Source: a virus
Direction: 5' to 3' (one strand)
Length of the DNA: 52,263 bases
Virus record (IMG/VR): IMGVR_UViG_3300027712_000046
Coordinates: 1 to 52,263 of that record
Shown piece by piece: positions 2,286 to 45,886 of the stretch. Each line of letters opens with the position of its first letter. Within the stretch, counting starts at the first letter, position 1. The notes under the pieces were generated by a model, which did not search any database, had not been told where the DNA came from, and worked only from the letters and a program-made list of their open reading frames with translations. Both the position numbers and the translations under genes were made by a program.

Positions 2286-2286
2286 A

Positions 2287-2937: not shown

Positions 2938-2940
2938 AAA

Positions 2941-3621: not shown

Positions 3622-3626
3622 TGTGT

Positions 3627-5934: not shown

Positions 5935-6650
5935 ACTATAGTATTTTTTAAAAATAAAGTGTCTTTAATATATTCAGATTCTATCATCAACCCATATTGA
6001 TATAATGAATTATTATTATGAGTTCCTCCGAAATCAATATCGGTATCTGCTGCCGAAGGATCGAATTTTTTAGTTCTCCATGACATACCTTCGTAATGTT
6101 TGAAATATTTATTTTCTAAATTTGCATTAGCAATAAGCAAATTTGAATTTATCACATCCTCAAACATTGTAGATCCTATATCATAAATTCGGTCTTCTGA
6201 TCTGCTTTGCTTAGTTCTTATAGGATCAAAAAATTTAATGTTGTTTTCTTTTAAATGTTTCAAATTTATAAAACAAAACCATGGATCAACTCTAGGATAC
6301 AATTGCTTGCCTCCTCTATCACCAGATACATTTCCCAACAATGTGAAATTTCCGCTTTTGAACTTTTCGTAGATAGGTGCGATATCTTGATACAAAATCA
6401 CATCGGAATCTATCAGCAAAACATGCTCGGTTTCGATAAGTTCGAACCCTTTATTTACACCATTGCCGTGTGACGTATTCTCCATAACGTGATACGTCGC
6501 CCCTTCCACCACATCCGATATATCCGTAGGTGTTCCTGTATCCATTACGAGAATTTCAGGCATTTTAGAGCAATGCAACCGCACCGATTTTAACAAATTT
6601 TGAATTAAAATCGGCGTATTGTAATTACATGTGAGTAATGTCAGATTCAT
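5931..6650 (-). CDS. Family 2-like glycosyltransferase
   Basis: The protein begins MNLTLLTCNYNTPILIQNLL, a typical GT2 first strand and loop, and has HGNGVNKGFELIETEHVLL followed by IDSDVILY, with DSD as the DxD motif. The middle and C-terminal parts are less typical (IGSTMFEDV, YFKHYEGMSW). I start at 6650, 2 nt after the upstream stop; a TTG six bases earlier is less likely. Third of four consecutive glycosyltransferase-like genes transcribed from the promoter near 7488. Confidence 0.7.
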   Translation of the reverse strand: MNLTLLTCNYNTPILIQNLLKSVRLHCSKMPEILVMDTGTPTDISDVVEGATYHVMENTSHGNGVNKGFELIETEHVLLIDSDVILYQDIAPIYEKFKSGNFTLLGNVSGDRGGKQLYPRVDPWFCFINLKHLKENNIKFFDPIRTKQSRSEDRIYDIGSTMFEDVINSNLLIANANLENKYFKHYEGMSWRTKKFDPSAADTDIDFGGTHNNNSLYQYGLMIESEYIKDTLFLKNTIV

Positions 6651-6652
6651 AA

Positions 6653-7456
6653 TCAACTACCGTAAGTCACTTTGATTTCTCTTAATTTTTGCATGATATC
6701 ATATTCATTGCTCGTCGGTATTTGACCGGGGTAGCAATTATGTTTTGATACAAATACGGCGTCAGCTTTTGATATTATCTCAGAATGATTTGGCTTTGAT
6801 GAAATTGCAGATTGCTGCAAGCTCCATTGTTCATCACCTAGATATTCCCATGAATTTTCAATATCTGCAAAATTCCAAAACGGAGGATGCATTCCCAATT
6901 TAATGATTTCATATGTATGATCCACATGCTCGCATGCGTTGTAGTATCGTTCATCCAAGAATCCGGCGTGATTGATGCATTGCCTTGTATAGAAGGAAAA
7001 TGCACCAACGCAATGTGGATACAATGGAAGTTTCATAGTTCCATATTCCACTATATATGTTGGATTTGGTTGATTAGTTCCATCAAATGTCTTATTCATC
7101 AATCCATGTTGAGAATAATTGAAATGTTGAATGCCCGTGTATTTGGAAGCTTCGATGTATTTTTGAAAGACTTCTGGATTTTTAATATAGATATCATCTT
7201 CAATCAAGAAGAAGTAGTCACACCCTTTATCAAACAAAAATTTCAAAGCGTCGTTTTTACTTTTACCAACGCCTTGATAAGGTTCGTCATGTGATATCAG
7301 ATTGGTGATATCTGACAAATGATCCTTAAATGCTCCGTCATTGACCACTACAAGCTCAGTTTCCGCATCAGGAGGAATTGAGCCATAGCACTTTTCAAAC
7401 GACTCGATACGGTCGCAAGTCAAAATTCCAATTCCTATGGATTTTTTATCATTCAT
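6653..7456 (-). CDS. Family 2-like glycosyltransferase, first gene of the glycan operon
   Basis: The 267-residue protein has IGIGILTCDRIESFEKCY, VGKSKNDALKFLFDKGCDYF followed by FLIEDDIYI (EDD at the metal site), then PHCVGAFSFYTRQCIN and GFLDERYYNACEHVDHTYEI, a good GT2 acceptor region. An ORF extends to 7504, but the ATG at 7456 lies 26 nt after a TTGACT box, matching the promoter rule of this phage, and starts directly at the first strand. It heads a minus-strand operon reaching to at least position 1. Confidence 0.75.
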   Translation of the reverse strand: MNDKKSIGIGILTCDRIESFEKCYGSIPPDAETELVVVNDGAFKDHLSDITNLISHDEPYQGVGKSKNDALKFLFDKGCDYFFLIEDDIYIKNPEVFQKYIEASKYTGIQHFNYSQHGLMNKTFDGTNQPNPTYIVEYGTMKLPLYPHCVGAFSFYTRQCINHAGFLDERYYNACEHVDHTYEIIKLGMHPPFWNFADIENSWEYLGDEQWSLQQSAISSKPNHSEIISKADAVFVSKHNCYPGQIPTSNEYDIMQKLREIKVTYGS

Positions 7457-7488
7457 AAAAGTAATTAAACATGTATTACAAAAGTCAA
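7457..7488 (-). promoter_or_regulatory. Early-type promoter of the glycan operon
   Basis: On the minus strand TTGACT (7488-7483), 15 nt, TAATTA (7467-7462), 5 nt, then the ATG at 7456. The predicted transcription start falls at the start codon. Confidence 0.55.
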
Positions 7489-7508
7489 GTCTATTGTGTG
7501 TCACTACA

Positions 7509-7520
7509 CTAAATAATTTT
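7509..7520 (+). promoter_or_regulatory. Late-type promoter of the GIY-YIG gene
   Basis: CTAAATAA (7509-7516), TTTT, then ATG at 7521. Same box and 4-nt spacing as the other late-type promoters in this window. Confidence 0.55.
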
Positions 7521-8435
7521 ATGTCAAATAATCATATTATAGCTCAATTATATAAAATAACGTGTGATGTTAATTGTTGGGTTTATTGGGGTATGGTATA
7601 TGCTGCCAATAAAACCTATCTGGACCGATTTGAAGAACATAAAATAGGCAAGGGTGGTAAACACCTATATAAGGGAATTTTGGAATATGGAGAATCTGAA
7701 TTTCGTGTTGAGTTGGTAGAAACTGGCGATTTTGAATATATTTCAAAACGAGAGGAATTAGAATCAAAACACACTTTGTATGCGCATGGGAGCGGTTGGA
7801 ATGGCAATTCTGGGCATTCTATTTTCAACACGCCTGAAACTATTAAAATTATAAACTCCAAACGACAATTGAAAGAAGTTGAACGAATTGCAAAATTTAA
7901 AGAATCATATGGTCAGTTAGATCAACAGAAAATTCAAGAAAAAAGAAGTAATACAATTGCTAATAAATCAGTATCTGAAATACATAAATGGCGAAAATCT
8001 ATACCAAATTCTTGGAGGGGCGATACTAAAAAAACTAACAAAAAATTACGTAAACAATCAAATTCTCTTAAAAAGACATGGGAAAATCCCACTGATGCTA
8101 TGATAGAAGGTATTAGGAAGAGCGCCAACTGGAAAATTGGAAAAAATAAAGATAATTGGGACGTTATGCGAAAACATTCTGAGAAAATGAAAATAAAAGT
8201 TAAAGGAAAAAATAATCCAATGTTTAAGCATTTTTATATTACTCCACTGGGCAAGTTTGAAACTTATCAAGAAGCTAGTAACGCTCACGGCGCTATAAAA
8301 AAATCAAGTATTCAAAGGCTTTGCAAAAATCCAGATAAAATTATAACTAAAACCATAGCAAAATTTTCTAATTTAGATTTTTCTTTTATAAATAAAACCG
8401 CCAAAGAAGCTGGGTTTGGGTTGGAATTTATCTAA
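7521..8435 (+). CDS. GIY-YIG homing endonuclease with NUMOD-type DNA-binding tail
   Basis: The N-terminal ~95 residues follow the GIY-YIG layout: LYKITCDVNCWVYWGMVYA (degenerate GIY and YIG strands), RFEEHKIGKGGKHLYKGIL, EYGESEFRVELVET and a late Glu (REELESKH). The rest is a lysine-rich DNA-binding tail with KGKNNPMFKHFYIT (NUMOD3-like GKNNPM) and a C-terminal TPLGKFETYQEASNAHGAIK helix-turn-helix-like element. Such genes are free-standing homing endonucleases in T4-like phages. The 304-codon start at 7521 is set by the CTAAATAA-N4-ATG promoter; an upstream extension to 7437 runs antisense through the glycosyltransferase gene. It points opposite to both neighbours, as expected for an inserted element. 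Confidence 0.8.
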   Translation: MSNNHIIAQLYKITCDVNCWVYWGMVYAANKTYLDRFEEHKIGKGGKHLYKGILEYGESEFRVELVETGDFEYISKREELESKHTLYAHGSGWNGNSGHSIFNTPETIKIINSKRQLKEVERIAKFKESYGQLDQQKIQEKRSNTIANKSVSEIHKWRKSIPNSWRGDTKKTNKKLRKQSNSLKKTWENPTDAMIEGIRKSANWKIGKNKDNWDVMRKHSEKMKIKVKGKNNPMFKHFYITPLGKFETYQEASNAHGAIKKSSIQRLCKNPDKIITKTIAKFSNLDFSFINKTAKEAGFGLEFI

Positions 8436-8449
8436 TATTCCAACCCAAA
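8415..8449. terminator. Bidirectional terminator-like hairpin
   Basis: TTTGGGTTGGAAT (8415-8427) and its exact complement (8437-8449) form a 13-bp stem with a 9-nt loop that contains the stop codon of the GIY-YIG gene. A T-rich stretch follows on the plus strand. It separates two convergent genes and can serve both. Confidence 0.65.
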
Positions 8450-8456
8450 TTTCATT

Positions 8457-9200
8457 TTATCGATTGTTGGACTTTCCATTTTTGATATCGTTGGTTAGTT
8501 TAATAATAGTTTCATCGTCTTTTTGTGCCTTTTCTTGTTCTTTGAGCATTTGCTCAAGCACTTGAAGATTTTCTTCGCTAAAAAAGTTTTCATCAGGTTC
8601 GATGAGTTCTCCTTTATCATCAATGAAATTGGAAATGAAACTGATTCTATCGTCAATAGTCTTGCCATGAATCTCAATAATGGCTGGACAATCCTCCTTT
8701 GGATAAAAAATATCGGTTTCAAGATCTTCGGCATATTGTTCATACAATTGAGCAAATACATCATCAACTTCCAAGATATGATCCTTACTGACATCACGAA
8801 GACCATCATCAACAATTGTGATATCTTCGTCATGACGAAGCCAGAATATGATATCAATATTCTTAAGACTTTCTCTCACCAGAGAAATAGAAGCTGCTGT
8901 GACTTCATTGTTGATCTTGTTATTGGCATTTCCAACCAATGTGTAGGCCAAGTTGTCCCAAGAGCATCTATCGAAGATGATATTGTCTTCTTTCTTGAAT
9001 TTCTCTTGAGTTGTCATCATCCAATCAAGAATCAACAATTGTGTTTCTTCTGTAGTTTTAGAAGAATGTTCAAGATTATTTTCTGTGATCACATCGCGAT
9101 ATGTCTTCAGCGGTGTACCATACATAGGCCATCGCTGAAGAAACGCTTTGAGCAAAGTTGACTTTCCCACACATGCAGTTCCTGATATAGCTAATCTCAT
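8457..9200 (-). CDS. P-loop kinase/NTPase (deoxynucleoside kinase or NadR-like AAA)
   Basis: The protein starts MRLAISGTACVGKSTLLKAF, with a Walker A motif GTACVGKST at residues 7-15, followed by IIFDRCSWDNLAYT (DRx lid/substrate region) and IDIIFWLRHDE. These fit small P-loop kinases of the AAA_28/NadR or thymidylate-kinase-like group that phosphorylate nucleosides or nicotinamide riboside. The C-terminal ~60 residues are charged and probably helical. I start at 9200, directly before the first strand. It lies 21 nt after the HNH gene and shares its promoter. The substrate is not determinable. Confidence 0.65.
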   Translation of the reverse strand: MRLAISGTACVGKSTLLKAFLQRWPMYGTPLKTYRDVITENNLEHSSKTTEETQLLILDWMMTTQEKFKKEDNIIFDRCSWDNLAYTLVGNANNKINNEVTAASISLVRESLKNIDIIFWLRHDEDITIVDDGLRDVSKDHILEVDDVFAQLYEQYAEDLETDIFYPKEDCPAIIEIHGKTIDDRISFISNFIDDKGELIEPDENFFSEENLQVLEQMLKEQEKAQKDDETIIKLTNDIKNGKSNNR

Positions 9201-9221
9201 ATAGAGATAATTTAACACACA

Positions 9222-9887
9222 TCAAACGTTTTTCAAGAACAAATCCCATTCTTCTAAGAAATCAACAAAAACAAATCCATTTTTAGGCTTTGTAGGCGAT
9301 TTATTGAGTCTCAGTTTTTTGCTTTGAGTTGCTACCCAATCTTTTAAGTCGTCGTCTTTTGGATTGAATTTAGACAAATCACATTCTTCTGGTCGTCTGT
9401 CACTCTTCCAGATATTAAGCTCTCTGTGGCAGCAAACTTGGTTTTCCCAAGTGTTGGCGTTGCCAGTATGCTTTGATCTAGGAATAATGTGGTCAATGGT
9501 AGAAGTTTCCTTTGTAAGCTTTATACCAGAGTAGCAACAGGTATTGTTGTCTCTCTTGATGATATTCATCTTTGTTGGAAAATACACCTGCTTATGAGGT
9601 ATTCTGTCATAAGATGCACACACAACCACACTAGGAACTCTAACTTTACCTCTTGTAGTCAGTATGAAGTCATCGTATTCTCGCACAGGAAGATTCAACC
9701 AGTCCTTACTTCCCTTTATAACGTTGAAATAGTCAACATTGTCTGTTTTATTGTTATCTTCATCAAATTCATAAGTGATGTCCAATGGATACACCACTTC
9801 TGAGAAGATGTTGCCGAAAGTCTTTTTTTCATCGCAAACGCCAACAGGAAAATAATACCTGTTCAAAACTAGAATTCGCTGATTCAT
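9222..9887 (-). CDS. HNH endonuclease
   Basis: The N-terminus NQRILVLNRYYFPVGVCDEK is that of the common HNH family that opens with VLVLNxxYxP. The nuclease domain follows: MNIIKRDNNTCCYSGIKL, then STIDHIIPRSKHTGNANTWE (His of DH, general base) and NQVCCHRELNIWKSDRR (Asn and Arg end). The zinc-type CxxC pairs are altered (CCYSG, CCHRE). At 221 residues the length is usual. The ATG at 9887 is exactly 28 nt from a TTGACA box. Possible roles are homing, packaging-associated nicking or host DNA attack; nothing here decides. Confidence 0.8.
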   Translation of the reverse strand: MNQRILVLNRYYFPVGVCDEKKTFGNIFSEVVYPLDITYEFDEDNNKTDNVDYFNVIKGSKDWLNLPVREYDDFILTTRGKVRVPSVVVCASYDRIPHKQVYFPTKMNIIKRDNNTCCYSGIKLTKETSTIDHIIPRSKHTGNANTWENQVCCHRELNIWKSDRRPEECDLSKFNPKDDDLKDWVATQSKKLRLNKSPTKPKNGFVFVDFLEEWDLFLKNV

Positions 9888-9921
9888 GTATCGATTTTAG
9901 CGAAAAGTTTGAGGATGTCAA
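9888..9921 (-). promoter_or_regulatory. Early-type leaderless promoter (HNH/kinase operon)
   Basis: Minus strand TTGACA (9921-9916), 16 nt, TAAAAT (9899-9894), 6 nt, ATG at 9887. Best example of the -35/-10/start-codon arrangement: five of six matches at -10 and six of six at -35 to the sigma70 consensus. Confidence 0.75.
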
Positions 9922-9982
9922 GTCTCATTATTTAGTAGATTTAATGTTAAATTCTAACCCCAACCCAACGATCAAATTTCAA

Positions 9983-9996
9983 TTAAATATTAATGA
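9983..9996 (+). promoter_or_regulatory. Late-type promoter of the PhoH gene
   Basis: TTAAATAT (9983-9990), 6 nt, then the ATG at 9997. It diverges from the early-type promoter of the HNH gene about 60 nt away. Confidence 0.45.
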
Positions 9997-10737
9997 ATGA
10001 GCACAAAACGTTCTACGCGCAAGCGTAAAGAAAATGATGAAATTGAAATCGATTTTATAGATGCCTATAAGAAAAATTTTAATTTGGGCAACATGAAACT
10101 AAAAAAACAATTCCCGTTGACACCTAATCAAAAAAAGTGTTATTATACAATCAATAATCAAAATACCAATATGGTGTTTATTGATGGGTTGGCAGGAACC
10201 AACAAAACATATCTATCTGTATATGCGGCAATAGAGCACTTAAAAGAAGGCAAAGTTGACCAAATTATTTATATTAGATCGGTTGTTGAAAGTTCATCCA
10301 GAAGTATTGGAGCTTTACCCGGTGAATTGGACGATAAATTTGGTCCATATACTATGCCATTGATGGATAAGTTGCATGAAATTGTTGATGACGCAATGTG
10401 CGGTCAATTAATGTCCAACAACTATATCAAAGCAATTCCAGTAAACTTTGTTAGAGGTCTTACTTTTCACAATTCATTTGTCATTGTTGACGAAGCTCAA
10501 AATATGAGTCGTGGTGAATTGGCTACTATTCTTACCCGTTTCGGACGAAACACCAAGTATATTATATGTGGAGATGCTAGACAGGCTGATATAAGAGATT
10601 CTGGATTTGAAAAGGTTCATCAATTGTTTGATACCGAACACTCTATCAAGAATAATATTCATTGCGTTAAATTTGACGCAGATGATGTTGTTCGTAGTCC
10701 ACTATTGAAACATATTACCCAAGTGCTGGGGGTTTAA
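9997..10737 (+). CDS. phoH: PhoH-like ATPase
   Basis: A 246-residue P-loop protein of the PhoH family, frequent in T4-like phages. FIDGLAGTNKTYLSVYAAIE is the Walker A region (residues ~61-80), with GTNKT where the family has GTGKT. IRSVVESSSRSIGALPGELD, PYTMPLMDKLHEIV and VNFVRGLTFHNSFVIVDEAQ (Walker B) follow in the family order, then RFGRNTKYIICGDARQADI. The basic N-terminal STKRSTRKRKEN is extra. Proposed roles for PhoH are RNA helicase/nuclease activity or phosphate-stress related; its phage function is unsettled. Confidence 0.88.
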   Translation: MSTKRSTRKRKENDEIEIDFIDAYKKNFNLGNMKLKKQFPLTPNQKKCYYTINNQNTNMVFIDGLAGTNKTYLSVYAAIEHLKEGKVDQIIYIRSVVESSSRSIGALPGELDDKFGPYTMPLMDKLHEIVDDAMCGQLMSNNYIKAIPVNFVRGLTFHNSFVIVDEAQNMSRGELATILTRFGRNTKYIICGDARQADIRDSGFEKVHQLFDTEHSIKNNIHCVKFDADDVVRSPLLKHITQVLGV

Positions 10738-11954: not shown

Positions 11955-12419
11955 TCAAAATTCATATTCATCGTCAATGTCCGCGCTGTTTGCATAGTCT
12001 GCCTTTGAACTCACAGAATAGTAAACATCGGAAGCATAATCAGCAGCTTTTGTGATCTTGGCAAGCATCCATTCTTCAAAATCTGATTCCTTTGCGATTT
12101 TTTCCAAACGTTTTGCATATTCACCAAGCTTCTTAAGTTCGGAACATACCATTTCACACAATTCATTTTCTTCATGTTCTAATGTTTCGTGTTCCATGTC
12201 AGCGCCAGTATCGAATGACATGACAACTTCTGGTTCTTCCATGTGTTCATGTTCTGCGTGTTCATGTTCTGCGTGTTCGTGTTCTGCGTGTTCGTGGTCA
12301 GAATAATCTTCTCCCCCGAATCCATTGAGTTGATCCAATGCGTTTTCTTCTTCGTCATCGTATCTACCAACTGCATAGTTCTCCCAAATCAAATTATTAT
12401 CTTTATGTTTAAATTCCAT
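11955..12419 (-). CDS. His/Glu-repeat protein, putative virion or scaffold component
   Basis: The 154-residue acidic protein starts MEFKHKDNNLIWENYAVGRY. Residues ~40-60 contain the pentapeptide HEHAE repeated, giving a histidine-rich segment able to bind divalent metals. The C-terminal half is helical (LCEMVCSELKKLGEYAKRLE, WMLAKITKAADYASDVYYSV), a pattern I associate with small virion proteins of T4-like marine phages. The ORF is open to 12476, but the ATG at 12419 follows TTAAATAA-N4. Function unknown. Confidence 0.6.
   Translation of the reverse strand: MEFKHKDNNLIWENYAVGRYDDEEENALDQLNGFGGEDYSDHEHAEHEHAEHEHAEHEHMEEPEVVMSFDTGADMEHETLEHEENELCEMVCSELKKLGEYAKRLEKIAKESDFEEWMLAKITKAADYASDVYYSVSSKADYANSADIDDEYEF
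12245..12297 (-). repeat. 15-bp tandem repeat coding for HEHAE
   Basis: Three 15-bp units (12245-12259, 12260-12274, 12275-12289) plus a partial fourth. The first two are identical and the third differs by one base. They encode the His/Glu repeat. Confidence 0.85.
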
Positions 12420-27695: not shown

Positions 27696-28346
27696 GTGAA
27701 TATTTCCAACCCGCTAATCGCATTCGCAAGTCAAAAAACAAGTCCTGCTGAAACGACAACATTTAAGTCAGCGCCAGTAAGTATCGAAACAATGCCATTT
27801 ATGAATAATAAAAATTCATTGGCATCAGTTTACAATGTGGTGATCAATCAAGCCAAGGCAAACAACCACGATGCTCTTATTTTGGTTCATGATGATATTA
27901 TTTTCGAACACGATCCAATACCAAAGCTGATCCGACTGTTTGACCAATTTGATGTGGTTGGAGTTGCAGGAGCATCAAATGTAAACATGCAATCGCCTGC
28001 ACTCTGGCATATTATGGGACAGGGACATCTACACGGTGCAGTTGCTCATGGTGACGAAAATGCTAAATGGATGACATCGTTTGGAAAATATCCAAATCGA
28101 GCGGTTATGATTGATGGTGTTTTTATGGCTTTGAATCGTGCTGCCATTGAAAAAGCATCGTTTGACGAAAGCAATCCTGCTGGATTCCACTGTTACGACC
28201 TTGACTTTTCTTTGAATTGCCATAAGATGGGCCTCCGAGTTGGCGTAGGAGACATTCTAATCACACACAGTTCTCCCGGATTGCGAGAATTTACAGAAGA
28301 TTGGAAGGCTGGAGAACGTTGGTTTTTAAACAAATATGAATCTTGA
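27696..28346 (+). CDS. Glycosyltransferase-like protein (GT2 type), GTG start
   Basis: The 216-residue protein has NNKNSLASVYNVVINQAKAN, ALILVHDDIIFEHDPIPKLI (HDD metal site), FDVVGVAGASNVN, DGVFMALNRAAIEKASFDES and FHCYDLDFSLNCHKMGLRVG. This is the layout of short GT2-like glycosyltransferases with an N..SL...YN opening. The GTG at 27696 is exactly 28 nt after TTGACA; no ATG is available before the conserved region. The end overlaps the helicase start by 11 nt, so this glycosyltransferase is co-expressed with the replication genes. Confidence 0.7.
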   Translation: MNISNPLIAFASQKTSPAETTTFKSAPVSIETMPFMNNKNSLASVYNVVINQAKANNHDALILVHDDIIFEHDPIPKLIRLFDQFDVVGVAGASNVNMQSPALWHIMGQGHLHGAVAHGDENAKWMTSFGKYPNRAVMIDGVFMALNRAAIEKASFDESNPAGFHCYDLDFSLNCHKMGLRVGVGDILITHSSPGLREFTEDWKAGERWFLNKYES

Positions 28347-29727
28347 TCTTGATTATTTTGAAAAAATATTGGTCCGTCAATCGCTGATTGACTCATCCTA
28401 TTTGACTGCTATTGCAGATTATGTTAAACCTGATTATTTCACAGACAAACGTATTGCGAAATATTTCGAAATCGTCCAAACATATTACGATAAGCATCAA
28501 TCATTGCCATCCTTAACCGAAGTCAAGGCATATTTGACTGATGACAATCTTCGAAACGGATTTAAAAATCTAGTGTCGTCATTCAAGGAATTGGACAGCA
28601 ATCTCAATAAGGATGAACTGTATTCAAATACTGAATCGTTTCTCAAGGAGAAGAGTGTTTATCACACTCTGTTGAAAGTTGCTCAAGAAGTGTCAGAAGG
28701 TAATATCGACACTCCTACCATCTTAGATCAATTCGAACGGTCATGTAACATCAACCTTGTTACTGATAAAGGTCTTGAAATCTTTTCGGGAATTGATCTG
28801 ATTGCGGATGATATTTTGAATGTTGATGCATACATTTCTTCTGGTTGGCCATGGCTTGACGATCTTATCAATGCTGGATTTAGACGCGATGGCAAGGCGT
28901 TGTATATTTTCGCAGGGCAATCAAATATTGGTAAGAGTATCTTCTTGGGTAATATCGCGGCGAATATTGCAAGACAAGGAAAAACTGTCTTGGTCATTTC
29001 TCTTGAAATGAGCGAACTGCTTTATGCAAAACGAATTTGTTCAAACATTACCAAAATTCCGATGAGGGAATTTGAAACTGCTGCTGAATCATTGCGATTC
29101 TCAGTCAAAGAAGAGCATAAGCGTTTGCCCGATAGCAAAATTTTCATCAAGGAGTTTCCACCGAGCACGATCACGCCTAAACAACTCACTTCATTCATCC
29201 AACGTTTCAAAGACTCAGGGGAGAACGTAGATGCCATTGTAATCGATTACGTCAATCTGTTGCACTCGACTGTAGGAAGCAACTCCTACGAGCGTGTGAA
29301 ATACATTTGTGAGCAAGTGAGGGCCATGAGCTATATTTTCAAATGTCCAATCATTTCAGCGACTCAGTTGAACCGTTCTGCATACAATACAAACAATCCC
29401 GGTATGGAAGGTTTGTCTGAGTGTATTGAAGTTAACCAATTGATTGAATTAAGAAGTGGTGAAATGATTAAGATCGGTGATTTGAAATTTGGTCAACAGA
29501 TAAAAACAAATGACGGTTATAAAACAGTTACACAAACCCATCATAAGAAAATTAAAAAGTGTTTTAGGATAAAATTGAAGTCTGGTAAAGAGATAATCGT
29601 AAGTGAAAAACATAAATTTCCAACAAACAGAGGCCGAATATCTATAAATGATGGATTGAATGTTGGTGATAAATTAAATAGTTTAACATCATCGGTTGCC
29701 GCTACTTTAACCACTGAAGTGGTCTGA
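28336..29727 (+). CDS. 41: Replicative helicase gp41, N-part fused to split-intein N-half
   Basis: Residues 1-362 are a DnaB/gp41 helicase: a helical N-domain, ALYIFAGQSNIGKSIFLGNI (Walker A ~194-201), VLVISLEMSELLYAKRIC, VDAIVIDYVNLLHST (Walker B), and CPIISATQLNRSAYNTN. After GMEGLSE the sequence turns into an intein N-half: Cys363-IEVNQLIELRSGEMIKIG, then KTVTQTHHKKIKKCFRIKLK and EIIVSEKHKFPT (block B-like), ending at residue 463. The chain stops before the helicase C-terminus. The remaining part is in the next gene. Activity needs trans-splicing with that protein. Compare the gp41-1 and gp41-8 split inteins known from phage helicases. Confidence 0.93.
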   Translation: MNLDLDYFEKILVRQSLIDSSYLTAIADYVKPDYFTDKRIAKYFEIVQTYYDKHQSLPSLTEVKAYLTDDNLRNGFKNLVSSFKELDSNLNKDELYSNTESFLKEKSVYHTLLKVAQEVSEGNIDTPTILDQFERSCNINLVTDKGLEIFSGIDLIADDILNVDAYISSGWPWLDDLINAGFRRDGKALYIFAGQSNIGKSIFLGNIAANIARQGKTVLVISLEMSELLYAKRICSNITKIPMREFETAAESLRFSVKEEHKRLPDSKIFIKEFPPSTITPKQLTSFIQRFKDSGENVDAIVIDYVNLLHSTVGSNSYERVKYICEQVRAMSYIFKCPIISATQLNRSAYNTNNPGMEGLSECIEVNQLIELRSGEMIKIGDLKFGQQIKTNDGYKTVTQTHHKKIKKCFRIKLKSGKEIIVSEKHKFPTNRGRISINDGLNVGDKLNSLTSSVAATLTTEVV

Positions 29728-29731
29728 CAAC

Positions 29732-29765
29732 TTGACAAACACAGAAGATGCAATAGAATTTATTT
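29732..29765 (+). promoter_or_regulatory. Early-type leaderless promoter of the intein C-half gene
   Basis: TTGACA (29732-29737), 16 nt, TAGAAT (29754-29759), 6 nt, ATG at 29766. It lies in the 38-nt gap between the two helicase halves. Confidence 0.7.
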
Positions 29766-30266
29766 ATGGATGCTAAACTTGAAAAATATATTAGAGAAAA
29801 AGTTAATGCTATGCGATTGCTTGGGCTAACTGATAGCAGAACCGAAACAGATGAATATATTAAAATGATGAAACTTGTTTTACAAGAACAAGATGATAAA
29901 AATATATTAACCGATTCAACTATCGATTATAATGATGAAATAGTTGAAATTGAAGAGATTGGCGACATGGAAACCGTCGATATCTCAGTCACAGGCGATC
30001 AGTTATTTTATTGCAACGGTATTTTAACTAAAAATTCGATCGGATTGGCCGCGACTTCGGATGTTATTCTTTCCATCTTCCAAAATGAAGAAGATCAAGA
30101 GCTTAATTTGATTCGATTGGGTATGATGAAGAATCGATTTGGACCTAGAGGAGGTATTCAGCCTATGAATATCGATTACACCACATTGACAATCACACAA
30201 TCCAGTGAAGAAGAGGAATTTATGAACGAAGAAGAGATTTCTTTACTTGAAAAATTTGCAAAATAA
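29766..30266 (+). CDS. 41: Split-intein C-half fused to C-part of helicase gp41
   Basis: Residues 57-90 are an intein C-terminal half: DEIVEIEEIGDMETVDISV (block F) and DQLFYCNGILTKN (block G) ending in Asn90. Ser91 is the +1 nucleophile and opens the helicase C-part SIGLAATSDVILSIFQN, then GMMKNRFGPRGGIQPMNIDY. The penultimate intein residue is Lys where His is usual. The first ~56 residues are an extra, charged helical extension longer than in known split-intein C-halves. Ligation of 362 + 76 residues would give a 438-residue helicase. No homing endonuclease lies between the halves. Confidence 0.92.
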   Translation: MDAKLEKYIREKVNAMRLLGLTDSRTETDEYIKMMKLVLQEQDDKNILTDSTIDYNDEIVEIEEIGDMETVDISVTGDQLFYCNGILTKNSIGLAATSDVILSIFQNEEDQELNLIRLGMMKNRFGPRGGIQPMNIDYTTLTITQSSEEEEFMNEEEISLLEKFAK

Positions 30267-37180: not shown

Positions 37181-38216
37181 GTTGCCGACCGATTATGTTG
37201 TGGCAAAGTTCTATGAGTTTGGATTTCAACCACAAACCAACAAATACAATGGCACCTACCAATGTGGGTGCCCTATTTGTAGAGAAGGTAAGAGTTTAGG
37301 ACGCAAAAAAAGGTGCTTTTATATTCCAGATCAAGACTTGATTTATTGTCATAACTGCGGATGGAGTAGCCAACCCCTGCGATGGGTGATGCAAGTATCT
37401 GGAATGGAAGAAATGGATATTTTAAACGAACTAGAAGATGATTCATACGACCTTATGGATGCATCTGCTCTAAATGAGCCGCCAAAAGCACCTCAGAAGC
37501 TTCCTTGCCTTCCTGATGACTGTATCAACCTAACTGATGACGCCCAACTTGCATACCATTCAAAAAATTTTATGGTTAAATCAGCATTGGATTATGCAAT
37601 CAGACGGCAGTTGTTTAGTGCAATCAACAAATGTGATGTATTATATTTCTCTTTGACGGATAAAGTTCATAAACATAGGCTAATACTACCATTTAAAGAT
37701 GAATACAATAAAATTCTGTTCTATCAAAGCCGAAAAATCTTTGATTGGGACGAAAGACCAACATATTTGTCTAAATTGAATGCTGATAAGACTCTGTTTG
37801 GCATAGATAGAGTTGATGGAAGCCTAAATGACAGCATTTTTATCTTTGAGGGGCCAATTGATGCATGTTTTGTTCAAAACGGGGTGGCAGTAGGCGGTAT
37901 TACAAAGGGAGATACGCTGTTTAGCCCTCTGCAACAGGAACAAATGGTTGGATTGAAGCTTTTTGATAGGATTTGGTGCTTGGATAGTCAATATTTGGAC
38001 CAAACCAGTTTGGAAAAGAGCATGAATCTACTTGAAAGAGGAGAAAAAATCTTTATATGGCCCGAAAACATCGGAACATTGTATAAAGATTTCAATCAAT
38101 TGTGTGTAGAGCAGAATATTGATAAAATACCATATTCATTTATCAAAAAACACACGTATCATGGACATCAGGGTATAATTAAACTTAAATTGATAACAGG
38201 GAAAGTAAAAAAATGA
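37107..38216 (+). CDS. 61: DNA primase gp61 (DnaG type)
   Basis: The 369-residue protein (T4 gp61 is 342) has an N-terminal zinc-binding domain: YQCGCPICREGKSLGRKK and IYCHNCGWSSQPLRWV, with cysteines at 53, 55, 58, 81 and 84. The Toprim core follows: HRLILPFKDEYNKILFYQSR, SIFIFEGPIDACFVQNGVAV and DRIWCLDSQYLDQTS. It makes RNA primers with gp41. The long overlap with the upstream gene is unusual, but the embedded promoter and the need for residues before the zinc site support this start. ATGA overlap with the methyltransferase. Confidence 0.88.
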   Translation: MLNASLNLSAILQGLNSRKTRQRIELPTDYVVAKFYEFGFQPQTNKYNGTYQCGCPICREGKSLGRKKRCFYIPDQDLIYCHNCGWSSQPLRWVMQVSGMEEMDILNELEDDSYDLMDASALNEPPKAPQKLPCLPDDCINLTDDAQLAYHSKNFMVKSALDYAIRRQLFSAINKCDVLYFSLTDKVHKHRLILPFKDEYNKILFYQSRKIFDWDERPTYLSKLNADKTLFGIDRVDGSLNDSIFIFEGPIDACFVQNGVAVGGITKGDTLFSPLQQEQMVGLKLFDRIWCLDSQYLDQTSLEKSMNLLERGEKIFIWPENIGTLYKDFNQLCVEQNIDKIPYSFIKKHTYHGHQGIIKLKLITGKVKK

Positions 38217-39214
38217 GTAAACTTAAAGTATTGAGCCTTTTTAGTGGAATTGGAGCCTTTGAGAAGGCTTTAACCAACAAAGATGTAGAGTTTGAGGTCG
38301 TTGCATTCAGCGATATCGACAAATACACTGTGCAAAGCTACTGTGCCATCCATAATGTTGATGAATCTCTTAATTTAGGCGATATATCAGCAATTAAAAC
38401 TAATTCATTGCCCGATTTTGACCTTTTGGTAGGTGGAAGTCCTTGTCAAAACATCAGTAAATGTGGAAATGTTAAAGGTTTGAAGGGTGATGAATCTAAA
38501 TTGTTCTATGATTACGCTAGAATACTCAATGATAAGCTTCCAAAGTATTTTATCTTCGAAAATGTTGATAATTTGCTCCAAGTCAATGATGGGGAAGACT
38601 GGAAGATTGTTTCAGTTGAATTATCTAAGAATTATAAGATAAAATCACAAGTTTTAGACTCCAAATACTACAATATACCTCAAAGTCGTAAAAGATTGTT
38701 TGTCGTGGGCGTTAGAAACGATATAGATGAAGAATTCAACTTTACACCGAGTTTAATTCCCACTTCTTTGACCATGAATGACATAATGGACCAAGATGCA
38801 GCTGATAGTTTGTTTATAACAAACTTTAATGGCCAATATGATGAAATTATTGAGAATAACAAGGTTGTATCTCTTAATAAAGGCAATAAAATCAAAAAGG
38901 TTGGCAACATATACCCAAAGAACGGTCAAAATGGCAATATTTACTCTCCTCACGGTTTATCACCTACCCTTAGAAGCGGTCAGGGTGTTGTAGGTAATGG
39001 TATTGGTAGTAATAATGCTCCAAAGGTGCTATTGGATGATGGAACTGTAAGAAAGCTTAGTTCTAAAGAGTGTTGGCGGCTTATGGGGTTCTCAGATGCT
39101 GATTATGAAAATTGCGTTGCGAAAAATGTATCCGCAACGCAATTATACAAGCAATCAGGTAATGCTATAGTCGTTAATGTAATCGAATCTATAGTGGATA
39201 ATTTATTCGGTTGA
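38213..39214 (+). CDS. C5-cytosine DNA methyltransferase
   Basis: The 333-residue protein has the ordered motifs of Dcm-type enzymes: I LSLFSGIGAFEKAL, IV LLVGGSPCQNISKCG (catalytic Cys 78), VI KYFIFENVDNLL, VIII YNIPQSRKRLFVVGV, IX-X KLSSKECWRLMGFSDADY and KQSGNAIVVNVIESIV. It methylates cytosine C5 at a short recognition site set by the region before motif IX. No restriction partner is beside it, so protection of phage DNA is the simplest role. Co-translated with primase. Confidence 0.92.
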   Translation: MSKLKVLSLFSGIGAFEKALTNKDVEFEVVAFSDIDKYTVQSYCAIHNVDESLNLGDISAIKTNSLPDFDLLVGGSPCQNISKCGNVKGLKGDESKLFYDYARILNDKLPKYFIFENVDNLLQVNDGEDWKIVSVELSKNYKIKSQVLDSKYYNIPQSRKRLFVVGVRNDIDEEFNFTPSLIPTSLTMNDIMDQDAADSLFITNFNGQYDEIIENNKVVSLNKGNKIKKVGNIYPKNGQNGNIYSPHGLSPTLRSGQGVVGNGIGSNNAPKVLLDDGTVRKLSSKECWRLMGFSDADYENCVAKNVSATQLYKQSGNAIVVNVIESIVDNLFG

Positions 39215-40558: not shown

Positions 40559-40795
40559 ATGAAAACTATTACTATACATAGAAAACAAGGAATCGTAGAA
40601 CAAATGAGCTTGACATCTTTCGCAAGATGGGCTTGTTTGGTAGAGGCATTTGAATTTATTGATGAAAAAGCAGAAGAATTGGGACTTGATCTGAAAGATG
40701 TTGTAAAACCACTAGCAATCGAGCATTATATCAATGAAAGATTTCCCGCAATGCTTCACGATGTTACTGTAGAAGCAAGATCAGGTAATATTTGA
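40559..40795 (+). CDS. Small hypothetical protein (78 aa)
   Basis: Acidic helical protein (ARWACLVEAFEFIDEKAEEL, VVKPLAIEHYINERFPAML). No family recognised. Convergent with, and overlapping by 15 nt, the glycosyltransferase on the other strand. A TAGTAA element 6 nt before the ATG resembles a -10 box without a -35. Confidence 0.55.
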   Translation: MKTITIHRKQGIVEQMSLTSFARWACLVEAFEFIDEKAEELGLDLKDVVKPLAIEHYINERFPAMLHDVTVEARSGNI

Positions 40796-41614
40796 CTTGA
40801 TTTCATCCTCAATAATTTGAATGTAATTATTATCGACCACTTCTTTGAAGTGGTCTTTTAATTCATCAGTAGGTAGACCCAATTCTGCAAACCCAATCAT
40901 ATAATTACGAAAGCGATCCTTTAAATTATTGGGGTATGACACTCCATTCGGGCGTTGGAATCGATGCATCCATCTTAAGAACGGTAAACATAATGTTTTT
41001 TTACCGTTTTTTTTGTATTTGGTATGAATATACCCTTCTTCGCCGCCAAAACCTCTGAAATTCTTATTAAAACCAAGCCAACTGTCTTTTCTACAAGCAA
41101 AAAGACCCAATCCTTGTGCAGGTATTTCAAAAGGCTTATTAGCAGGTGAAATACCCCTGTCATCGGTGCCCCAAGTGCCCCACATATAAGATCTCCATTC
41201 CAAATCAAAGTGTGTTGAAATGTTTTTCATATCATCATACACCAATGGACCTTGTAAAAGATTACCACGATCCTTTCCAGAATCAAAAAACGCAATTAAT
41301 TGATTAATCGATCCCGGTTCCAATAAAACATGGCTATCAATACACAACACATAAGGTGTATCTGCCAATTCAAATATTTTATTTCGAACAATAGTGGAAT
41401 TATACTTTGTAAATGGCAAATATTGAACAGGTTCTTGAATCCATTCAATATATTCACGTAAAGATTTGCCGTGTTTGCTAGTTGGATTGTTATCAATGAT
41501 GATAAATTCAACATCATTCAATATTTCAGTATGAAACATTCGAATGGCTTGTAAAGTAAAGTAAATACCATCAAAATCATCATGGACCGCCATGCCTATT
41601 GTTAATTTTTTCAT
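40781..41614 (-). CDS. Glycosyltransferase (GT2, GalNAc-transferase-like) in the adhesin module
   Basis: The 277-residue protein has KKLTIGMAVHDDFDGIYFTL, VEFIIIDNNPTSKHGKSLRE, YNSTIVRNKIFELADTPYVL followed by CIDSHVLLEPG (DxH metal motif, as in polypeptide GalNAc transferases), and NKNFRGFGGEEGYIHTKYKK (GGEE acceptor/catalytic region). DxH plus GGEE resembles enzymes adding the first sugar to Ser/Thr. It is 11 nt downstream of a gene for a Ser/Thr-repeat protein, an attractive substrate. That link is inference. Confidence 0.75.
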   Translation of the reverse strand: MKKLTIGMAVHDDFDGIYFTLQAIRMFHTEILNDVEFIIIDNNPTSKHGKSLREYIEWIQEPVQYLPFTKYNSTIVRNKIFELADTPYVLCIDSHVLLEPGSINQLIAFFDSGKDRGNLLQGPLVYDDMKNISTHFDLEWRSYMWGTWGTDDRGISPANKPFEIPAQGLGLFACRKDSWLGFNKNFRGFGGEEGYIHTKYKKNGKKTLCLPFLRWMHRFQRPNGVSYPNNLKDRFRNYMIGFAELGLPTDELKDHFKEVVDNNYIQIIEDEIKSNIT

Positions 41615-41625
41615 TTCTATAATTA

Positions 41626-42153
41626 TCAGAATCCTAATCTATTGCAACTACCAATTTGAGAAGAACATTGCAATACCAATGGAGATATTGTAGTGACTTT
41701 AGAAGTTGTGGTGCTAGTAGATACATAAACAACAGGCTGTAATGTTGTTGATATGTTTGAGGGGCTTCCAAATCCCGGTGGCATCGTTAATGGATTAGAT
41801 GTAGTGGTTGGATTTAACGTAACTGTGAACACAGGAGGGAATGTAAATGTTCCCGGATCAAGAGTTGTCTCCGTAGTTGTCTCTGTAGTGGTCTCCGTAG
41901 TAGTATACGGGGGAATCGTAGTGCTGGTAGATGTGCTGGTGGATGTAGATGTAGATGTGCTGGTGGATGTGGACGTAGAGGTGCTAGTGCTAGTGGTCTC
42001 CGTAGTAGTATACGGGGGAATCGTAGTGCTGGTAGATGTGCTGGTGGATGTAGATGTAGATGTGCTGGTGGATGTGGACGTAGAGGTGCTAGTGCTAGTG
42101 GAAGTGCTAGTGCTAGTTGATGTGTCTGTTGTAAATGTAGTTTCATCAACCAT
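41626..42153 (-). CDS. Ser/Thr-repeat (mucin-like) virion protein
   Basis: The 175-residue protein is dominated by alternating Ser-Thr runs in two blocks, each followed by TTIPPYTTTETT. A Pro/Thr-rich region (FTFPPVFTVTLNPTTTSNPL) and a short C-terminus with two Cys (LQCSSQIGSCNRLGF) follow. No catalytic motif. The composition is that of a heavily O-glycosylated stalk or spacer. It lies between a lectin-like virion gene and a glycosyltransferase on one transcript. Confidence 0.7.
   Translation of the reverse strand: MVDETTFTTDTSTSTSTSTSTSTSTSTSTSTSTSTSTSTSTSTTIPPYTTTETTSTSTSTSTSTSTSTSTSTSTSTSTTIPPYTTTETTTETTTETTLDPGTFTFPPVFTVTLNPTTTSNPLTMPPGFGSPSNISTTLQPVVYVSTSTTTSKVTTISPLVLQCSSQIGSCNRLGF
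41890..42099 (-). repeat. Perfect 105-bp tandem direct repeat
   Basis: Units 41890-41994 and 41995-42099 are identical base for base (35 codons each), including silent positions, so the duplication is recent. Smaller 6-bp Ser-Thr repeats lie inside each unit. Confidence 0.9.
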
Positions 42154-42156
42154 TTA

Positions 42157-42969
42157 TTATGGATATATCCCAGATAAAGTGTTATATGTTAATTCTCCAG
42201 ATGTTTTGATTTTATCAAATGGTATTATCTCCGTAATTGCATCTTGCGTTGCTCCTTGAACGTGAAAATTTTTGAAAAATAACGTAGATGGAGTATTTAA
42301 TGATGATATTGGCGAGCAAAATGTGAATCCAGCTTTCAATCCGTTTTTGTATGTCAAATAGTTTCCAATATATACAGAAGTTAACGTTCGATACGATGAA
42401 TCTGTATTATATTTAAAATCGATAGATATGGTATCTGTATTTGCGTATCTAAATCGCAAAGTTTTGTAAGATTTTGCTGATGATAGTATTGAGAATGATG
42501 AATTTAAACTAGATAATGTTTCATAAAAAATGATATTATCAGAACCTTCTCGTATTATTATGCTATTGCGTTTAATTTGATTCAAATTAACGCCCCCTCT
42601 AGTCGAAGAAGACAACGCAAACAATCCTGTTGTATCAAATGCAATACAAATGTCGCCAACTGTATCAGTTCCAACGTTTCCTTCTAATACAATACGATTG
42701 TAATCTTCTGTTAAGATAAACTCATCACTTTCAGTTGCTAAAAATGCTGATGCAGGAAGACTACAACTATATCCTAGATATTGCCCCGGTAAAGCTGATG
42801 TTGATTGAGTTTGGGATGTTAAAAACGTGCAAAAACCAGCTTCTGTTCCAGTCAATGCATATTGAAAACTCCAAGTTATATCATAGCTTGGATTATATTG
42901 ATTATTATTATCAACAAATGCAAAATACTTTGCATTTGCTGGTAATGTTATGTCCGCTGGAAAACTCAT
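42157..42969 (-). CDS. Lectin-like beta-sandwich adhesin/virion protein
   Basis: The 270-residue protein has ITWSFQYALTGTEAGFCTFL, SALPGQYLGYSCSL, GDICIAFDTTGLFALSSSTR and SYKTLRFRYANTDTISIDFK. These follow the strand order of L-type lectin/concanavalin-like domains (G.....LGY, then G....AFDT.G.F) often found in phage adhesins. Carbohydrate binding is likely but not shown. It lies directly downstream of the fibre genes. Confidence 0.6.
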   Translation of the reverse strand: MSFPADITLPANAKYFAFVDNNNQYNPSYDITWSFQYALTGTEAGFCTFLTSQTQSTSALPGQYLGYSCSLPASAFLATESDEFILTEDYNRIVLEGNVGTDTVGDICIAFDTTGLFALSSSTRGGVNLNQIKRNSIIIREGSDNIIFYETLSSLNSSFSILSSAKSYKTLRFRYANTDTISIDFKYNTDSSYRTLTSVYIGNYLTYKNGLKAGFTFCSPISSLNTPSTLFFKNFHVQGATQDAITEIIPFDKIKTSGELTYNTLSGIYP

Positions 42970-44078
42970 ACTTTATCTTTAATCAATACACTAACAGGTA
43001 AATCATATCGAGCAAATAAATTAGCTAGTGATACAACCTTAACAATGCAATAAGTATTGGTGGATTCAGTAACTTTAGCAAACCAGCCCAAATTATCTGA
43101 AATCACGTTCGCTAAAACAAACGGTTTTGATAAATTAGTGGTAGGATACGAGAATTTATATTCTCCTCTCGCCATTCTAGTAGCCGACAATAAAGAAGAA
43201 TTTGCATCGAATGATGACAGTAGAGAACCATCTGCGATGGTAAGAATTCCCCATTTTTCAGTCCAATAAATACTGTTTAGTGTGAATGCATTAACAGCTG
43301 ACAAAATACTACTATCAACTCCGATAACAACGGTGCTTGTCAATGGATTTGTCGCAACTCCAGTTATTGGAAGTCCATTACCAGTAGCCGTCAATCCATT
43401 TGTTACAGTTATTGTATTTGTAGATATATCAACAGCTGATAATTTTGTCCAGCTGAGAGTTCCATCGGCTTGTATTCTAGCAAATGTATTATTTAATAAT
43501 ACATTTGATGGAAAGTGATAAATGTTATTATTTATCTTTAGATCACTTGGAAGTGTCAATTCAGAAGCCGTTGCTTTTACAATAATATCAGCTGGAATAG
43601 TTGCAGACAGTGCGATCTTATTAGATCCATTAATGTAAATCGGCGCTGTAGTTGCATTTGAATCAATATTACCCGCTGATATTTTACCTACAATTACAGA
43701 AGTGTCTGAAATTACAATAGTTCCATTACCTGCATTATAAATTCCACCGATTTTAGTCCAATTTGAAACAGTTGTTCCCGGTAACGATGTTAATTTGTAT
43801 AGATAATTAAGATTAGTAGCAAATGCCAAATCTCCAACTTCTGAATTATCTCCATATGAAGTTGCTATGTTGGAAACTGTAGTCTGCTCACCTTTGAATT
43901 TGTTACCAGCCGGAACTCCCCCAGCAGTTGAACCATCTCCAATATATAATCTTTTTGTATCTGTTGAATATCCAAGTTCACCAGCATCCAAAATGATTTG
44001 TTTTCGTTGAGAGTCTGGACCCTGCCGAACAATCAATTTCAGGAGAGTGTTTTCGTATATTTCAATAGATTTTGCCAT
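42966..44078 (-). CDS. Tail fibre protein, paralogue 1
   Basis: The N-terminal 45 residues (LIVRQGPDSQRKQIILDAGE followed by LGYSTDTKRLYIGDGS) form a phage fibre N-domain of the R.G.......L..GELGY..DT..l.iGdG type, as in major tropism determinant and many short fibres. The rest is beta-repetitive and Ser/Thr/Asn-rich, as in trimeric fibres, and ends in a compact domain (MARGEYKFSYPTTNLSKPFV). Receptor-binding function is inferred from the fold and context. Overlaps the lectin-like gene by ATGA. Confidence 0.75.
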   Translation of the reverse strand: MAKSIEIYENTLLKLIVRQGPDSQRKQIILDAGELGYSTDTKRLYIGDGSTAGGVPAGNKFKGEQTTVSNIATSYGDNSEVGDLAFATNLNYLYKLTSLPGTTVSNWTKIGGIYNAGNGTIVISDTSVIVGKISAGNIDSNATTAPIYINGSNKIALSATIPADIIVKATASELTLPSDLKINNNIYHFPSNVLLNNTFARIQADGTLSWTKLSAVDISTNTITVTNGLTATGNGLPITGVATNPLTSTVVIGVDSSILSAVNAFTLNSIYWTEKWGILTIADGSLLSSFDANSSLLSATRMARGEYKFSYPTTNLSKPFVLANVISDNLGWFAKVTESTNTYCIVKVVSLANLFARYDLPVSVLIKDKV

Positions 44079-44086
44079 ATAATTAA

Positions 44087-45190
44087 TTAGTAAGCGTAGA
44101 CTGGAATTGCAAAACGACTGATTATCTTATCGCCTAATCTTGTTGATGTGTTACCTTCAAACAACATGAACCCAGCAGATGACAATACAAGAACACTTGA
44201 CGTAGAGCCATTTGAAGACATTGTATAGTAAGTAGTCAATGCTCCAGATGCGGACGGCCATGATGTCAAACCTTTTGTAATAGCACCATTATGACCAGTT
44301 CCAGTTCCGTCTGGGTTAAACGCGGATACAACATCATAAATGGATGATCTGATATAAGTAATTCTACCATAACTATCTGATGACATAGCAGCCATTTCAC
44401 TATAGTTAGTTCCAATTGTTTTTAAATCTAATGTGCCATTTGCGTTTAAATCAAATGCCGCAACATTAACACCTGTTATAGCGGTTCGAATAGTGGAATT
44501 TGCACTATTCAGTTGCAACCCATTACCAATCCACGAACCGGACAATGCAGAGTAACTGAGAGCAGCTACATCCAAATTACCATCTGATGTAATTTTCAAA
44601 TTAGATGCCAATTTAAGACCAACTTTGGTTCCATTACCACCACTCAAACCATTTGTGAATGTGGCGGATGCCAATTCAAATTCTGTAACGCCTTGATTGT
44701 TAATTTGCAGAGCACTTAATCCACTCAATTTGAATTGAGTTGCATCATAGTTGACTTTGAGAATACCAGAATCAATTTTAAGACCGCCAGTTACATAAGA
44801 TGGATTAATTTTGATTGGAAGAATTGCATTGTCTTTTAATGTTATGTAATTGTTTGATAATAATTCAAAAAACGCAGCATCAATTTTTGGACCGACTGGA
44901 TACCAAGATGAAATATTATTGTAAGCTGCCGCAGTTAATTGATAAAATTGATTATTTGCATACACCAAATCGCCAACCTGTGCATTTGTGTCAGTAAGAG
45001 AGCTATAGCTGTTTGAAACTGGATGCACTTTTGATCCAACTACAACACCACCCGATAGAGTGCCTGTCCCCACAAAAACTCTACGAGTGTCAATGGTGTA
45101 ACCCAACTCACCTTCATCCAAGATGACGGTTTTACGTTGAGAATCCAGTCCTCTACGGACTTTAAATTTTGTAATTTGAATACTTGCCAT
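44087..45190 (-). CDS. Tail fibre protein, paralogue 2
   Basis: Same plan as its neighbour: an N-domain KFKVRRGLDSQRKTVILDEG then ELGYTIDTRRVFVGTGTLSG, followed by VGDLVYANNQFYQLTA and a long beta-repeat shaft (SGGNGTKVGLKLASNLKITS). The C-terminal domain (MSSNGSTSSVLVLSSAGFML) differs from paralogue 1. The head-to-tail pair suggests duplication with divergence of receptor-binding ends. 367 residues. Confidence 0.75.
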   Translation of the reverse strand: MASIQITKFKVRRGLDSQRKTVILDEGELGYTIDTRRVFVGTGTLSGGVVVGSKVHPVSNSYSSLTDTNAQVGDLVYANNQFYQLTAAAYNNISSWYPVGPKIDAAFFELLSNNYITLKDNAILPIKINPSYVTGGLKIDSGILKVNYDATQFKLSGLSALQINNQGVTEFELASATFTNGLSGGNGTKVGLKLASNLKITSDGNLDVAALSYSALSGSWIGNGLQLNSANSTIRTAITGVNVAAFDLNANGTLDLKTIGTNYSEMAAMSSDSYGRITYIRSSIYDVVSAFNPDGTGTGHNGAITKGLTSWPSASGALTTYYTMSSNGSTSSVLVLSSAGFMLFEGNTSTRLGDKIISRFAIPVYAY

Positions 45191-45193
45191 ATA

Positions 45194-45886
45194 TTAAGCG
45201 GTTCTTTGCCAAATGTAAAGACCAAATGAGGGGGGAGTGGTCATTATCGGTACTCCCAATCCAGTGTTGTCTGCTGTATTTCCAACAAGCGATGTTTTAC
45301 CAAGAGTTGCTTGAGTTGGAGTTCCTCTTAATGTGTAAGCTCTACTAGCTACTGCATAAGCATCGGCTATGACTGTGGTTTCGGCTGATACAGTAGGTGC
45401 AGTTTGAGCGTATGCACTATCAGAGTTAGCAACATAGTGGGAGTGAGCAGGTAAATTATTCTTATCGAGGGCTACTTCATATTTTCCAGTATTGTTACCA
45501 CCAACGCTAAAGGTTCTTGAAATACCAGTTGAATCTGATCCAGTTCCAACCCCAACAATAAAGCGTCCTTGTGCAATTTGTCCCCAAGTTCCACCCATAA
45601 AAGTAGATGGACTTGAATTGGTAGCTGTAAAATAAACACTTCCAACAGGGAATAACACATCGATCAATGGTTTAGGAGAGGCGGATGTCGGGTATGACAC
45701 ATTACCAGCAATAAGTGGACCGCTAACAACAGCCCCATTGTTTTTAGCGCCAAGTGATAATGCGGTTTGCTTACCACCGCCATCATAGATATCATCTATA
45801 CTAGATGAGGGTACTCCGTCATTGTTAACTGTGTGTAACAAGGAGGTGTAAGTATCAGAAATAAACTGGTTTTCCAAAGATTTCAT
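45194..45886 (-). CDS. Tail collar-domain fibre protein
   Basis: The 230-residue protein contains the phage tail collar fold: DVLFPVGSVYFTATNSSPST, FMGGTWGQIAQGRFIVGVG, then ALDKNNLPAHSHYVANSDSA and a C-terminal MTTPPSFGLYIWQRTA. This is the arrangement of short tail fibre (gp12-type) and microcin-collar proteins, where conserved His residues can bind iron. Its promoter has both a TTGACA box and a late box. First gene of the fibre group. Confidence 0.85.
   Translation of the reverse strand: MKSLENQFISDTYTSLLHTVNNDGVPSSSIDDIYDGGGKQTALSLGAKNNGAVVSGPLIAGNVSYPTSASPKPLIDVLFPVGSVYFTATNSSPSTFMGGTWGQIAQGRFIVGVGTGSDSTGISRTFSVGGNNTGKYEVALDKNNLPAHSHYVANSDSAYAQTAPTVSAETTVIADAYAVASRAYTLRGTPTQATLGKTSLVGNTADNTGLGVPIMTTPPSFGLYIWQRTA

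Follow-up and report, generated by a model that had tools for sequence, protein, structure and literature searches.

Two adjacent genes in the DNA of an uncultured phage probably encode a dedicated O-glycosyltransferase and the protein that it would modify, a probable tail appendage with a Thr/Ser tract. Judging from the sequences and from structural modeling, we put this reading at roughly three chances in four. The pair lies within a 52,263-nucleotide stretch of viral DNA (IMG/VR record IMGVR_UViG_3300027712_000046), the whole of which is referred to here as the window (Table 1). By its sequence, the source is an uncultured, remote T4-like phage, because its DNA polymerase is only about 30% identical to those of T4-like phages and because the glycosyltransferase (GT) had no homologues in 50,697 phage records (tblastn, two queries).

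Table 1. Coordinates of the GT gene, its partner, and the neighboring tail-region genes in the window
Feature	Position	Strand	Basis
Stand-alone GT-A glycosyltransferase, GalNAc-transferase-like, 277 aa	40781..41614	-	Pfam PF00535; AlphaFold2, Foldseek, and VIA-align
Intergenic gap of 11 nt, repeat protein stop to GT ATG	41615..41625	-	
Presumed substrate: mucin-like protein rich in Thr and Ser, 175 aa	41626..42153	-	Composition, duplication, counterparts in relatives
C-terminal tag CSSQIGSCNRLGF-stop	41629..41667	-	Kept among GT loci with varied synonymous codons
Predicted L-type-lectin-like protein (270 aa), encoded just ahead of the repeat protein	42157..42969	-	Foldseek
Tail-fiber-type protein, Mtd_N	42966..44078	-	Pfam PF18454, 3.2e-09
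Tail-fiber-type protein, Mtd_N	44087..45190	-	Pfam PF18454, 5.5e-08
Gp10_C baseplate/tail-type protein	45194..45886	-	Pfam PF21939, 5.2e-20

We confirmed the placement of a Ser/Thr protein 11 nt ahead of the GT on the minus strand, as the original prediction had it. The protein contains 67 Thr and 39 Ser residues (61% S+T; 69% S+T+P), and its long Ser/Thr/Pro-rich tract qualifies it as mucin-like. Its earlier description as near-pure Ser-Thr repeats holds for roughly the N-terminal 100 residues; the 75 that follow include a stretch rich in Pro and Thr and a conserved C terminus that contains Cys. A perfect tandem duplication of 105 bp was found within the ORF, and no Pfam domain was detected in its product.

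The GT matched Glycos_transf_2 (PF00535) with an E value of 8.8e-10 and 39.2 bits, above the gathering score of 23.3, and the same family was matched by all 49 member sequences at E values up to 0.01. The DxH and GGEE motifs read from the sequence at the outset are present, as D93-S94-H95 and residues 190 to 193, respectively. When 61 phage and 50 bacterial relatives were aligned, the Asp, the His, the first Gly, and both Glu residues of these motifs were invariant, and the second Gly was kept in all but one. Across these 111 sequences, D93, H95, and E192 did not vary, and H217 was found in all except one gapped row.

Structure comparison linked this active site to a known enzyme class. The AlphaFold2 model of the GT, built from an alignment of 49 sequences, reached a pLDDT of 92.8, and the best 50 Foldseek matches in the PDB were all polypeptide GalNAc-transferases. 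In VIA-align, which re-ranked the Foldseek matches and thus leaves room for other families, 29 polypeptide GalNAc-transferase entries ranked first (Z 20.3 to 24.4 over about 250 to 260 residues), and the next-ranked enzyme was chondroitin polymerase (Z 18.6). In GALNT1 and GALNT2, an Asp-x-His motif coordinates Mn together with a more remote His (PMC4202792, PMC4388629; also PMC6115407), and in GALNT2 the sugar is bound by Glu334 (PMC4388629). The spacing of 25 between E192 and H217 in the phage GT equals that between E334 and H359 in ppGalNAcT2. Matched by motif and spacing rather than by coordinate superposition, D93, H95, and H217 fit as candidate Mn ligands and E192 as the candidate sugar-binding Glu. 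Together, the comparison of the AlphaFold2 model and the invariant active-site residues strongly support the early description of the enzyme as GalNAc-transferase-like.

The phage GT thus shares with the eukaryotic polypeptide GalNAc-transferases of mucin-type O-glycosylation (CAZy GT27) a predicted catalytic fold (Z up to 24.4 over 256 of 277 residues), an invariant DxH...H plus Glu, and a Thr/Ser-rich partner. However, it is phage encoded, is only about 15% identical to these enzymes, and was placed by Pfam only in Glycos_transf_2. A profile search against PDB sequences returned no GalNAc-transferase at E values up to 1. No ricin-type lectin family was matched, and the protein stops after the catalytic domain. 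Because the sequence searches miss GT27 and the lectin domain is missing, the model leads us to say that the phage enzyme probably works like a GT27 enzyme rather than that it is a member of that family.

Far from being absent in related phages, the pair recurs in them. Viral contigs were scanned twice, which provided 81 analyzable viral GT loci in addition to the window; in 68 of these a Thr-rich ORF lies no more than 1.5 kb from the GT. Judged by these sequences, the pairing is not due to chance, because it recurs in most relatives.

The pairing is often marked by a short C-terminal tag on the partner, a feature absent from the original prediction, with the consensus C-x(2-6)-C-[NK]-x-L-x-[FY]-stop. 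Counting the window, upstream sequence was readable at 81 viral loci, and in 64 of them the ORF preceding the GT ends with the core pattern C-x-x-L-x-[FY]. A second Cys stands a few residues ahead in most tags (e.g., CSSQIGSCNRLGF, CPEDEDCNNLQF, and CNPYCNKLGY), a Thr-rich tract nearly always precedes the tag, and the gap from the tagged ORF to the GT is 10 to 13 nt in all tagged relatives. The 64 residues preceding the tag have a median S+T+P content of 53%, versus 17% in other ORFs of the same loci. In 15 of 16 tagged viral records (about 2.0 Mb), tracts of six consecutive Thr codons were found in the GT-adjacent ORF or ORFs, with two tracts elsewhere (coordinates compared by hand). The bodies of the tag carriers vary, from 113 aa of repeats up to about 2,000 aa, and two of the largest contain beta-helix domains. 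Neither the large tagged proteins nor the GT, repeat, and lectin genes had a match in PHROGs. Tandem tagged copies were seen in eight loci (L002, L014, L030, L031, L042, L044, L047, and L051), and deep branches of the GT tree carry the tag as well. A search of 25 records for another long ORF that bears the tag but lies away from the GT found none; the remaining matches to the pattern were very short frames or, in L090, an ORF without Leu at the tag position. Enzyme docking or appendage anchoring is most likely the role of the tag, and these sequence data fit both.

Codon usage bears on whether the repeat ORF is a gene at all. The low-complexity repeat and an antisense frame that is open for 168 aa are compatible with a spurious ORF, or with a tag that is merely the ribosome-binding site of the GT. 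However, the Thr/Ser tract uses all four codons for Thr and five for Ser. Among 22 distinct tag hexapeptides, the Cys, Leu, and Phe/Tyr classes are constant and are encoded by six Leu codons, both Cys codons, and four Phe/Tyr codons. Since the tag residues are fixed while their codons vary, it is the protein that is under selection; this variation rules out a ribosome-binding constraint and makes the spurious-ORF explanation highly improbable.

Relatives of the GT were also found outside viruses, again a point that the original prediction did not contain. One genome scan yielded 52 bacterial or archaeal homologues with 36 to 55% identity, 50 of which could be aligned over the GT domain; the phage GTs form a single clade apart from the bacterial sequences (support, 1.0). 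The enzyme looks rare: among Alphaproteobacteria, it was detected in 1 of 190 genomes at E 1e-40, namely the center genome, so there is no independent alphaproteobacterial replicate. In the bacterial examples scanned, the GT domain is fused to an HprK-related or PqqD-like region, sometimes together with GT25 or sulfotransferase domains. The HprK-related region matched TIGR04352 (NCBIfam HprK_rel_A) at E 1e-12 to 1e-25, under the curated cutoff.

Many of these bacterial GT loci hold a small twin-arginine (Tat) protein with a poly-Thr exported part; in L142, for example, the signal RRKALKKIAAGTAVAGALAVSSKWSKPVVNSVILPAHAQA is followed by TNAQGPATDTTTTTTSTTTTTTTTTTTTTANPNGR. When ten of these proteins were compared with NCBIfam, only the generic Tat signal model was matched, in 3 of the 10. 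The GT loci (475 kb) held 38 T-rich ORFs, 22 of them with a Tat-like signal as well, whereas control DNA taken from the same genome set (550 kb) held 4 and 1, respectively. The corresponding binomial P values, 2e-9 and 6e-7, are uncorrected for relatedness and are optimistic because the loci are phylogenetically related. Sixty of the 312 seven-Thr-codon matches found genome-wide fall in 26 GT loci, against 0.69 expected by length, and 8 of the 26 genomes contribute to them. A Tat-type Thr-rich neighbor was not seen in about half of the bacterial loci by the criteria used. Since the GT was the sole criterion for choosing these loci, they provide an independent association of the GT with Thr-rich proteins. 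In the Thermomicrobiales locus L150, the GT-domain gene is flanked by two large Tat-like proteins (1478-4822 and 8162-10180), both of which contain runs of Thr and Cys-rich repeats. Among cultured bacteria, Desulfofustis glycolicus (locus L140) has both a homologue of the GT and a Thr-rich Tat neighbor. The phage and bacterial systems are therefore alike in having a homologous GT domain, about 50% identical between them, near Thr-rich proteins, which in bacteria often carry a Tat signal. They differ in that the phage GT stands alone, with no HprK-related or PqqD (RRE) domain detected by Pfam in its 277 aa, and in that its partner bears a C-terminal tag whereas the bacterial partner bears a Tat signal.

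Untagged GTs fall into a few viral lineages, and in L049, L058, L063, and L078 long poly-Thr ORFs lie near the GT nonetheless. No Thr-rich partner was found within 1.5 kb in three lineages of incomplete records (L004-L009; L052/L062/L064/L065; L056/L066), so some relatives of the GT may act elsewhere. In the six L004-L009 records, all partial, the GT and the lectin-like gene converge, and a search for tracts of six Thr codons found none anywhere. Such loci would be expected if the GT acts on another acceptor (a host surface glycan, a phage-built glycan chain, or DNA) and adjoins the repeat gene through a shared hypervariable tail region. Phage GTs that modify DNA do exist, according to a paper citing Pyle 2024 (PMC12619734), and the window contains a separate glycan cluster. 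We nevertheless regard this alternative as unlikely: a Thr-rich partner follows the GT in phages, the untagged ones included, and in tail-less bacteria, and the nearest solved folds are of enzymes that glycosylate Thr/Ser peptides, ranking above chondroitin polymerase, RmlT, and TarS. The glycan cluster itself, a glycan/nucleotide-sugar cluster on the minus strand (436-7504), encodes two transketolase-like half proteins, GT2-type proteins, an NAD epimerase/dehydratase, and an FkbM-type methyltransferase; it may serve to elaborate the glycan added by the GT. At its edge, on the opposite strand, lies an ORF that by eye resembles a GIY-YIG-type homing endonuclease (7437-8435).

The pair, the lectin-like gene, and the tail-type genes lie on one strand with tiny gaps. 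The T4-type late promoter TATAAATA occurred at a chance-level count, with none near the pair, and a scan for sigma-70 promoters likewise gave chance-level matches only. The adjoining gene had been called lectin-like, and the call is supported, albeit on a low-confidence model (pLDDT 59), by legume lectins as the top Foldseek matches of the 270-aa protein (E 6.6e-07). A homologue of this protein was found in 35 of the 58 viral loci with sufficient upstream DNA. An alternative is that the target of the GT is the neighboring lectin-like or fiber protein, with the repeat serving as an unmodified flexible spacer and the tag as a virion attachment or oligomerization signal. Tract length and sequence do vary freely while the tag is fixed, and the size range of the tag carriers, two of which have beta-helix domains as in tail spikes, agrees with such a role. 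Yet 23 of the 58 loci yielded no lectin homologue, while Thr-rich tracts persist in most, and the bacterial GT is paired with Thr-rich exported proteins where lectin or fiber genes are not evident. We consider this alternative quite improbable.

Several other features of the window were recorded. A strong terminator-like hairpin (40835-40855, plus strand) lies within the GT gene, in its 3' portion, and adjoins a small convergent gene (40559-40795), homologues of which were found in 74 viral loci. By eye, a DnaB/gp41-like helicase frame appears to be broken by an intein-like sequence (28336-30266, plus strand), and the translated product of 38213-39214 (plus strand) resembles a C5 cytosine DNA methyltransferase. 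A 15-bp tandem repeat (12243-12293) encodes His/Glu repeats (EHEHAEHEHAEHEH) in a 173-aa protein that is possibly metal binding.

The original prediction of an O-glycosylation cassette is thus upheld in part, notably by the GalNAc-transferase-like fold seen by structure comparison and by the conserved pairing (68/81); the reaction, the acceptor residues, and the virion location of the repeat protein we infer from sequence and the model. In our preferred reading of a dedicated enzyme and its substrate, the upstream protein would be a tail-associated appendage whose Thr/Ser tract acts as a glycan-carrying linker, and the GT would be translated straight after it. Before virions assemble, and still within the host cytoplasm, the enzyme, a predicted Mn-dependent GT-A transferase binding Mn and a nucleotide sugar, would place sugar on the Thr/Ser hydroxyls of the tract. 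The tag would bring enzyme and substrate together or anchor the product.

Bacterial adhesins with adjacent dedicated GTs include the serine-rich repeat proteins and AIDA-I/TibA with their heptosyltransferases. In those systems, as here, a repeat protein or adhesin adjoins its own GT, but the enzymes are different. Mycobacteriophages glycosylate virion proteins, namely capsid and tail-tube subunits, with glycans at the protein C termini (Freeman 2023, as described in PMC12619734). Compared through that citing paper, the present case would share the glycosylation of virion proteins by a phage and the C-terminal glycans, but its target would be a Thr-rich protein of the tail region that carries a tag of its own. 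Among the papers searched, none linked Thr-rich/Tat proteins, HprK-related kinases, and such a GT, which is weak evidence of novelty.

The pairing in dozens of phages, together with its other form in bacteria, suggests that prokaryotes have an as yet undescribed equivalent of mucin glycosylation. We hold with about equal confidence and doubt a broader version of this idea, in which one GalNAc-transferase-like family is dedicated to poly-Thr proteins throughout prokaryotes. This family would act on Thr-rich, Tat-exported proteins in bacteria, guided by PqqD- or HprK-type regions; T4-like phages would have acquired it to coat a tail appendage with sugar, and a C-terminal tag specific to the phages would direct the enzyme to its substrate. 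If this holds, eukaryotes would not be alone in performing mucin-type O-glycosylation with a GalNAc-transferase-like enzyme, and a testable function could be assigned to the bacterial HprK/PqqD-type gene sets that carry the GT domain. The compact 277-aa GT and its natural substrate would then also offer a practical O-glycosylation tool for E. coli. For the phages themselves, it would mean that aquatic T4-like phages bear phage-encoded sugar coats on their tail appendages, affecting adsorption.
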